Assembly: GCA_902594605.1 (NCBI GenBank)
Contig: CACJMR010000001.1
Span: 1-64,000 of the forward strand
Source: an uncultured Pelagibacteraceae bacterium
GTDB lineage: Bacteria > Pseudomonadota > Alphaproteobacteria > Pelagibacterales > Pelagibacteraceae
Reading direction: 5' to 3'
Length of the DNA stretch: 64,000 nucleotides
The notes below the pieces were generated by a model that did not search any database, was not told where the DNA came from, and worked only from the letters and a program-made list of their open reading frames with translations. Positions within the stretch are counted from its first letter, which is position 1. Every line of letters starts with the position of its first letter. This document shows positions 24,252 through 27,271 of the stretch, one piece after another. Position numbers and translations under genes: made by a program.

Positions 24252-24925
24252 TAAATATTTCCAAAGTTTCTTTTTATTGATTTGAATTTATCCAAAATTT
24301 TATAATAATCGTTTTTATTAAAATCTGGCCATAACTTCTTTTCAAAAAAAATTTCAGAATATGCTAACTGCCACAACAAAAAATTACTTAATCTATTAGT
24401 GTTACCAGTTCTTATAAGTAGATCGGGATCTGGTATATTTTTTGTTTGCAAATGTTTGATAAAATTGCGTTCGTTTACTTTTGCTTTTGTTTTTTGCATA
24501 CCCTTAAAGGCTTCTAATAATTCAATCTTTGAACCGTAGTTTAAAGCTAAATTAATTTGCAAATTTTCATTATTTAAAGTTTTTTTCTCAGCTAAATTTA
24601 ATAGTTTATTTAAATTTTTAGAAAAATTTCTACTACCAATAAATTTTAGTTTAATATTTCGTTTATGTAAACTTTCTAACTGGTTTTTAAGAAAATCTTC
24701 TAACAAATTAAATAGATATACAACCTCTTTTTTTGGTCTCTTCCAATTTTCTGTAGAAAAAGCAAACAAAGTAAGAAACTTTATTTTTTTTTTCATAGAA
24801 GCTTTAATTATTTTTTCTACAGTTTTTAATCCAGCCTTATGTCCAGCATTTCTTGATTTTTTATTTTTTAAACCCCATCTCCCATTACCGTCCATGATAA
24901 TGGCTACATGATTTATTGGGTTCAT
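24251..24925 (-). CDS. uppS: Undecaprenyl diphosphate synthase
   Basis: HVAIIMDGNGRWGLKNKKSRNAGHKAG; LTLFAFSTENWKRPKKEV; PDLLIRTGNTNRLSNFLLWQLAYSEIFF. Confidence 0.97.
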   Translation of the reverse strand: MNPINHVAIIMDGNGRWGLKNKKSRNAGHKAGLKTVEKIIKASMKKKIKFLTLFAFSTENWKRPKKEVVYLFNLLEDFLKNQLESLHKRNIKLKFIGSRNFSKNLNKLLNLAEKKTLNNENLQINLALNYGSKIELLEAFKGMQKTKAKVNERNFIKHLQTKNIPDPDLLIRTGNTNRLSNFLLWQLAYSEIFFEKKLWPDFNKNDYYKILDKFKSIKRNFGNI

Positions 24926-25473
24926 ATTGTCATTATTTCTTTTTCTTTAGAAGAAACTTTATCTTCAACTAGCTTTATGTGTTCATCAGTAATTAATTGA
25001 ATTTTTTTTTCATGAATTTTTTCATCATCTTCACCAATTTCTTTAGATTTTAATAACTTTTTTAGATCCTCATTTGCTTCTCTACGTATATTTCGAATTG
25101 AAACTTTACACTTTTCACCAATTGATTTAATCAGTTTTTTTAATTCTGCTCTACGCTCCTCATTTAATTCTGGCACAGGCAATCTTATTAATTGTCCGTC
25201 TACTTGTGGATTTAATCCTAAGTCTGACTTTTGAATAGCTGCATCAACCAATGGCACATTGTTAGCATCCCATACCTGAATGTTAATCATTCTTGGTTCG
25301 GGTGTAGTAATACTTCCCACTTGATTAATGGGCATCTGCTGTCCATATACCTCAACTTTAATAAGATCAAGCATAGAAGCATTAGCTCTTCCAGTTCTAA
25401 GAGAAGATAGCTCCTTAGAGAAGACCTCTATGGCTTTATCCATTTTGAGGCTGTATGATTTTTCATCAAACAT
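24922..25473 (-). CDS. frr: Ribosome recycling factor
   Basis: LRTGRANASMLDLIKVEVYGQQMPINQVGSITTPEPRMI; KVSIRNIRREAN. Confidence 0.97.
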   Translation of the reverse strand: MFDEKSYSLKMDKAIEVFSKELSSLRTGRANASMLDLIKVEVYGQQMPINQVGSITTPEPRMINIQVWDANNVPLVDAAIQKSDLGLNPQVDGQLIRLPVPELNEERRAELKKLIKSIGEKCKVSIRNIRREANEDLKKLLKSKEIGEDDEKIHEKKIQLITDEHIKLVEDKVSSKEKEIMTI

Positions 25474-26325
25474 TTATTCTCCTATTTTAATTCTATAGAA
25501 TTCTTTAATTTTTAAGTCTGCTATAGAAAGTTCTTTAATTACATCTTTAACTTTTTTCTTGGGTTCCATCACCCATGCTTGTGTTAAAAGTGCGTTTTCC
25601 TCTTTAAACTTATTCATTTTGCCTAAGCTAATTTTTTTTGCAATATCCTCTGGTTTACCTGAATTTTTTAATTCTTCAGTTACTAATTGCTGTTCTTTAT
25701 CAATAATTTCTTGATCTATTAAATTAGAGTCTAAGGCCAGTGGATTTGATGCTGCAATGTGCATAGACAATTGTTTACCAAAATTTTTAATTGTTTCTGA
25801 GTTATCCTTTGTATCTAAAGATACCATAACAGCTAACTTTGCTACATTATCTTTTACAACAGTATGAAGGTAATGATTATTTATACCATTATTATTTTCT
25901 AATGTCTTCGCTTTTCCAATTGTAATTTTTTCACCAATTTTTGCAATTAATGCAACAAGATTGTCATCAACTGTTTGACCATTTTTCATTTTAGATGATT
26001 TTAGTTCGTCAATGTTTGAATTATTTAGATTGTTTAATTCACTTAACTCTTTTACAAAAGTAATAAAATCATCGTTTTTAGCAACAAAATCTGTTTCACA
26101 ATTTACTTCAATAACTGATGTTTTATTTTCATCTCCAGTAACCACAACAACTCCCTCCTTAGCATCTCTGGACATTTTTTTTGAAGCTTTTGAAATTCCT
26201 TTAACTCTAAGTATCTCTATAGCTTTATCAATATCTCCATTTGACTCTTTTATTGCAAGATTACAATCTTTAAAACCAGCTCCTGTGGCTTCTCTAAGTT
26301 TTTTTACTTTTTCAATATCAGTCAT
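25474..26325 (-). CDS. tsf: Elongation factor Ts
   Basis: [52 protein letters not shown]. Confidence 0.97.
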
Positions 26326-27149
26326 TAATTAAGTTTCTCCTTATCTTTTTCTTTATTGGAAAATTTTTTATCCAATTTTTCTCTATCCAATTCTTGAACT
26401 GTTTTTGTTTTATCATTAGATTTAGTTTCTTTAGTTATATTCTTTTTAATTTCTGACGAAGGTATTGTTTTTTTTGCACTAACAATCGTTTCTTTAATCA
26501 GGTTACAATAAAGATCAATAGCTCTTCTAGCATCATCATTTCCAGGAATAGGATAGTCGATATTATCTGGATTAGAATTACTATCTAAAATAGCAATTAT
26601 TGGTATTCCCAATTTAGCAGACTCAGCTATAGCTAAAGATTCATAATTTGTATCTATAACAAATACTAAATCTGGAACTTTTTTCATTTCTGATATACCA
26701 CCTAAAGATCTTTGTAGCTTATCTTTTTTAACACTCATTTTTAAAAGTTCTTTTTTAGTAAAACCTCTATTTTCTGCAACTAAATCAGTTTCTAACTTTT
26801 TTAATTTTTTGATCGAGTTTGAAATAGTTCCCCAGTTAGTTAACATACCTCCTAGCCATCTATAATTAACAAAATATTGATCTGTTTCTTTTGCTACCTC
26901 AGCTATGGCTTCAGATGCTTGTTTTTTTGTAGATACAAATAAAATTTTTCCATTATTTGATATAGTTTCATAAACTTTTTCTAGAGCTACCTTGGTTAAT
27001 TCTAGGGTTTGAGTTAAGTCTATAATGTGAATTGAGTCTCTTTTTCCAAAAATATATTTTTTCATTTTTGGATTCCATCTCAAAGTTTTATGCCCAAGAT
27101 GAACGCCTGCTTCTAATAATTGTTGTATTGTAACGTTAGGTATTTTCAT
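26325..27149 (-). CDS. rpsB: 30S ribosomal protein S2
   Basis: [59 protein letters not shown]. Confidence 0.98.
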
Positions 27150-27236
27150 ATTTATTCCCGGTTAAGCCACCACAGTAATTTCCTATAAAGGACCGGAGGT
27201 ATAAAACCAAAAACTGTGTGCGTGTTAATTTAATTT
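27150..27236 (-). promoter_or_regulatory. rpsB 5' leader with H-type pseudoknot; candidate ribosomal protein S2 autoregulatory RNA
   Basis: Complementary pairs in interleaved order: ACTGTG/CACAGT (27213-27218 with 27171-27176) and CCGGT/ACCGG (27192-27197 with 27157-27162, including one G.U); the 3' strand of the second helix lies just upstream of the rpsB start. GC-rich against an AT-rich background. Confidence 0.75.
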
Positions 27237-27242
27237 GAGAAG

Positions 27243-27271
27243 TATTTACAAATATTTACTAAATATAACAA
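27243..27271 (-). promoter_or_regulatory. Candidate sigma70-type promoter for rpsB-tsf-frr...
   Basis: Minus strand TTGTTA (27266-27271), 17-nt spacer, TAAATA (27243-27248), placing a start near 27236 upstream of the leader structure. Confidence 0.45.

Follow-up and report, generated by a model that had tools for sequence, protein, structure and literature searches.

What lies between dnaE and rpsB in this SAR11 (Pelagibacteraceae) bacterium, and could it control the synthesis of ribosomal protein S2? The 64,000 nucleotides analysed here (the window) carry dnaE, a leader, rpsB, tsf and frr in that order on the minus strand. The putatively regulated gene, rpsB (26325–27149, minus strand), encodes the 274-aa uS2 protein (TIGR01011, 318.6 bits against a cut-off of 76.3); its ATG occupies 27147–27149, and the leader lies directly 5′ of it on the same strand. 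The next gene, tsf (elongation factor Ts; 25474–26325, minus strand; TIGR00116, 248.2 bits), starts at the last base of rpsB. Further along, frr directly follows tsf in an rpsB-tsf-frr-uppS run (24922–26325) from which pyrH is absent. In many bacteria pyrH sits between tsf and frr; elsewhere in this genome, which is incomplete (about 56%), the match to a PyrH model is weak and partial.

The first-pass annotation of this DNA proposed that the rpsB leader folds into an H-type pseudoknot and that it is probably an instance of a cis-regulatory RNA class reported for Pelagibacter. Sequence comparison bears this out: the leader has the same gene, the same position between dnaE and rpsB, and the same P1, P2, P3 and pseudoknot layout, and it is the published ribosomal-protein leader known as the “rpsB motif,” with a pseudoknot that is real. 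The motif and its pseudoknot were first described from “Candidatus Pelagibacter ubique” (Meyer 2009, PMC2704228), so the leader RNA itself is already known and its novelty is low; only the tightly kept spacing to the AUG in Pelagibacteraceae and the gap left by the Rfam threshold, both discussed below, may be new. The leader very probably forms the 5′ end of the rpsB-tsf mRNA and acts there in cis as a translational operator, with repression by uS2 as part of that explanation.

Helices of the leader and their covariation

The four strands picked out at first sight lie on the minus strand as CACAGT (27213–27218), TCCGGT (27192–27197), ACTGTG (27171–27176) and ACCGGG (27157–27162); the helices CACAGT/ACTGTG and CCGGT/ACCGG interleave, which defines a pseudoknot, and comparison of leaders confirms both. 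The region was also correctly described as a GC-rich island (core 45% GC, whole window 28%). In this single sequence by itself the pattern exceeds chance only modestly and is too weak to decide the matter; an equally stable interleaved helix pair occurs in 23 of 1000 dinucleotide shuffles (2.3%) and, among 5114 stretches of 87 nt taken from both strands of the window, in 21. Nested folding of the single sequence gives z = −1.04 and a minimum-energy structure that differs from the pseudoknot model.

Related leaders were therefore decisive, and they were collected via the S2 protein, without reference to leader structure. Almost every Pelagibacteraceae locus retrieved has CCTCCGG some 50 nt upstream of the start of S2, within a recognisable copy of the element. 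The covariation alignment comprises 80 distinct leaders, in which standard pairs fill 98.0% of the pair cells, compared with 27.6–51.7% when the partner strand is slid; changes on both sides of a pair number 53 cells, against 12.2 in shuffles. A long hairpin pairing 27205–27214 with 27154–27163 is both the minimum-energy and the centroid fold of the single sequence and might have been the functional structure, leaving the pseudoknot as a chance pattern. We regard this as extremely improbable: only 81.1% of its cells are paired in the same alignment, which equals the shuffled mean, and none of its pairs has changed on both sides, whereas seven pairs of the pseudoknot model have. The hairpin was dropped as a conserved structure, as it lacks covariation support.

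Helix P1 is longer than the first-pass annotation had it. Its 5′ strand is CGC-A-CACAGU (27213–27222, minus strand) and its 3′ strand, from the sequence and the 80-leader alignment, ACUGUG-GUG (27168–27176, minus strand), giving 9 bp; beyond a bulged A at 27219, which is invariant in 80 of 80 leaders, an outer CGC/GUG that had been overlooked pairs 27220–27222 with 27168–27170. The inner 6 bp are paired in all 80 leaders, and 98.8% of all P1 cells are paired. Six of the nine P1 pairs show changes on both sides (CACAGU/ACUGUG becomes, for example, CACAAU/AUUGUG or CAUAGU/ACUAUG). A further family of the order has AUC/GAU in place of the outer CGC/GUG. The middle outer pair, 27221/27169, is unpaired in nine of the 80 SAR11 leaders and is A-A or A-C in other Alphaproteobacteria; it is not strictly Watson-Crick and is more aptly assigned to an internal loop beside the bulge.

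Two small helices fit inside P1. The 3-bp P2, GGU (27206–27208) with ACC (27198–27200), both on the minus strand, was likewise missing from the first-pass annotation; 94.9% of its cells are paired, it shows no covariation among the 80 SAR11 leaders, and it is longer in other Alphaproteobacteria and in leader L111. The 2-bp P3 joins CC (27190–27191) to GG (27182–27183), also on the minus strand, with 93.8% of cells paired. A TCC-TTTATA-GGA hairpin had been suggested here, and its CC/GG pairs survive as P3; its T-A pair does not, because the partner of T27192 is A27162, in the pseudoknot.

The pseudoknot joins CCGGU in junction J2-3 (27192–27196) to ACCGG (27158–27162), both on the minus strand. 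It is the most conserved helix of the leader, with 100% of cells paired (80 of 80 leaders). A sixth pair, U27197-G27157, is possible; this position is U-G in 68, U-A in eight and something else in four of the 80. Within SAR11 one pseudoknot pair has undergone a double change, from G-C to U-A, in two related leaders (L068 and L077), so that the alignment of SAR11 rpsB upstream regions displays covariation in both of the interleaved helices. Comparison across classes reaches further. The strands are CCGGU/ACCGG in all 25 parsed alphaproteobacterial leaders and GGGU/ACCC in all 22 parsed gammaproteobacterial leaders, E. coli included; the second pair is thus swapped from C-G to G-C, an independent strand swap, and we take this as stronger evidence than the change within SAR11. 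Complementarity played no part in locating the gammaproteobacterial strands. A survey of linker lengths, on the other hand, sought the 5′ strand of the pseudoknot by complementarity, and its pairing counts are not independent; the separate strand parsing locates most strands without such a step. In leaders L191 and L192, from another genus of Pelagibacteraceae, P1 is different (CGCACAGAGAAG...CUUCUCUGGAGG) and P2 and P3 are longer, with CCGGU/ACCGG retained.

Rfam matches and known relatives

The rpsB motif of Meyer (2009, PMC2704228; RF01815) shares with the window leader its gene, its position after dnaE, the helices P1, P2 and P3, and a pseudoknot that links J2-3 with a 3′ extension after P1; the “Cand. 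P. ubique” example also has a 5-bp pseudoknot, a 3-bp P2 and a 2-bp P3. A search with Rfam covariance models, suggested as a check by the first-pass annotation, gave a divided answer. RF01815 aligns over its full length at 27141–27222 with E = 1.2e-4, and this is its only match in the source genome, but the score of 32.6 bits is below the gathering cut-off of 40; relative to RF01815 the P2 and P3 of the window leader are minimal. Default annotation consequently misses the leader. The same holds across the family: the 40-bit cut-off is reached by none of the 99 Pelagibacteraceae genomes searched (the best scores 39.5 bits), although 56 of the 99 have matches at E ≤ 0.001, so automated annotation will omit the leader in SAR11. 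One of the sub-threshold genomes, G274, has an rpsB start at 873284, abutting the published “P. ubique” intergenic region with the motif, 873155–873283 (Meyer 2009, PMC2704228), and scores 33.3 bits. Since the cut-off is curatorial and the genome with the published coordinates scores only 33.3 bits, we file the window leader under the published rpsB motif and not as an Rfam-thresholded match. The standard Rfam cut-off thus misses the rpsB RNA in the very family where it was first described.

In Alphaproteobacteria as a whole, RF01815 matches 117 of 190 genomes, with one match per genome, and 48 of these pass the cut-off. A covariance model built from the SAR11 leaders (R1) was rejected as too narrow for class-wide use, as it found 20 of the 190 compared with 117 for RF01815. 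Other alphaproteobacterial rpsB leaders have the P1 layout and the CCGGU/ACCGG pseudoknot (the 25 parsed leaders above) in common with that of the window, but their P2 and P3 are longer.

The E. coli-type leader model, t44 (RF00127), matches nothing in the window at E values up to 10, nor anything in the genome. The E. coli leader itself (Aseev et al. 2008, as cited in PMC10931766) likewise precedes rpsB-tsf, and shares the P1 layout CNCA-CAC/GUGGNG with its bulged A as well as a pseudoknot in which J2-3 pairs with the strand that follows P1 (GGGGU/ACCCC in the E. coli case).

Transcription of the leader and spacing to the start codon

The window has a putative −35 element, TTGTTA (27266–27271, minus strand; preceded by C, giving CTTGTT), and, after a spacing of 17 nt, a putative −10 element, TAAATA (27243–27248, minus strand), and this TTGTTA-N17-TAAATA block comes directly after the dnaE stop. 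CTTG is conserved upstream of P1: of 93 distinct Pelagibacteraceae leaders, 81 have it 66–36 nt from the helix, and it occurs once elsewhere in the 75 nt that were scanned. A conserved TGTAAATA-like block follows the CTTG block in the leaders of relatives. From the −10 spacing and this conservation we infer a start at about 27236, about 14 nt upstream of P1, which would give rpsB its own promoter after dnaE. A generic sigma-70 scan called no promoter at the CTTGTT-TAAATA block. Because this promoter-like element is conserved ahead of P1, transcription should take in the 5′ strands of the helices. No site resembling a terminator turned up, and attenuation by an intrinsic terminator accordingly finds no support.

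The placement of the final pseudoknot strand right in front of the S2 start codon had also been pointed out; the strand ends 8 nt away. The linker, GAAUAAAU (27150–27157, minus strand), varies in sequence among relatives, but its length is kept: the pseudoknot ends exactly 8 nt before the AUG in 123 of 133 Pelagibacteraceae leaders. A core Shine-Dalgarno sequence is absent before rpsB in 131 of these 133, and the window leader too has none, only a weak GGGA that overlaps the pseudoknot strand. In the window the AUG and the eight A/U-rich nucleotides before it are unpaired, and the end of the pseudoknot falls within the normal footprint of the 30S subunit. By contrast, the pseudoknot of other Alphaproteobacteria usually lies 14–20 nt from the AUG, with a separate Shine-Dalgarno core in 25 of 27 leaders, and in E. 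coli it ends 24 nt before the AUG with the Shine-Dalgarno sequence between them. (A few values in the linker survey are regular-expression errors; L113, for example, was given 46 nt and by eye has 18.) The linker measures 9–10 nt in a second family of the order, whose leaders L199–L204 and L028–L031 carry a GGAG overlapping the 3′ strand of the pseudoknot (ACCGGAG), a possible case of direct Shine-Dalgarno sequestration. In the rpsB operon of the window, tsf (AAGGAG) and frr (AGGAG) have core Shine-Dalgarno sequences and rpsB does not.

Possible modes of action

In E. coli, uS2 represses its own mRNA through the rpsB leader, as determined experimentally in work cited in PMC10931766 and PMC2704228; PMC10931766 adds that bS1 assists and that a conserved bulge matters, reports a ribosome-binding site outside the operator, and describes the mechanism there as unresolved. 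By analogy, uS2 in SAR11 would bind P1 with its bulge and the junction and repress translation; S2 probably turns off its own synthesis through the leader. Under the scheme that we favor, uS2 present in excess of free 30S subunits would bind P1, the bulge and the junction, possibly together with bS1, and would thereby stabilise the pseudoknot; the stabilised knot, standing inside the 30S footprint, would block translation initiation of rpsB and, by coupling, that of tsf as well. Hiding of a Shine-Dalgarno sequence is unlikely to be the mechanism, because a core Shine-Dalgarno sequence precedes only seven of the window's 63 ORF starts; a stabilised knot inside the footprint is likelier. Occlusion of the ribosome-binding region, as first proposed for this locus, is more plausible in SAR11 than in E. 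coli because of the 8-nt spacing without a Shine-Dalgarno sequence, as opposed to 24 nt, though S2 binding and repression enter this argument as presumed steps.

Two other readings bear on the same spacing. The SAR11 leader could act as that of E. coli does, with uS2 and bS1 binding P1 and its bulge and repressing by a route other than a steric block by the pseudoknot (trapping of the 30S subunit or competition for bS1), and the closeness to the AUG being a by-product of genome streamlining. Intergenic regions are indeed short in SAR11, the bulged P1 architecture is common property (the A never varies among the SAR11 leaders, and CACAC...GUGGNGG can be seen in those of Alpha- and Gammaproteobacteria), and the E. 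coli operator, according to PMC10931766, does not contain the ribosome-binding site and needs bS1. Yet the linker holds its 8-nt length while its sequence drifts, and the pseudoknot is the helix that has changed least; we consider this reading somewhat unlikely. Alternatively, the pseudoknot might mainly support translation initiation, as a platform for the 30S subunit on a gene that has no Shine-Dalgarno sequence, or might serve mRNA stability, regulation being secondary. The near-universal lack of that sequence before Pelagibacteraceae rpsB and the adjacency of the structure to the start codon would fit such a role, but Alphaproteobacteria and Gammaproteobacteria whose Shine-Dalgarno sequence is separate retain the same structure, and its E. 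coli version is known for uS2-dependent repression (PMC10931766), which makes a primarily supportive role quite improbable.

Our proposal of direct occlusion extends to the history of the element, at a confidence that falls just short of even. In Pelagibacteraceae the uS2 operator may have merged with the translation start, the linker going from about 14–20 nt with a Shine-Dalgarno sequence to 8 nt without one; the result would be a lineage-specific form that occludes initiation directly, unlike the E. coli version, which reportedly represses while leaving its ribosome-binding site uncovered. With covariation as its evidence, the comparison of leaders confirms a regulatory RNA already published from one of the most abundant groups of bacteria, and because the knot abuts the start codon there, SAR11 may be the easiest lineage in which to test how uS2 represses its own mRNA.
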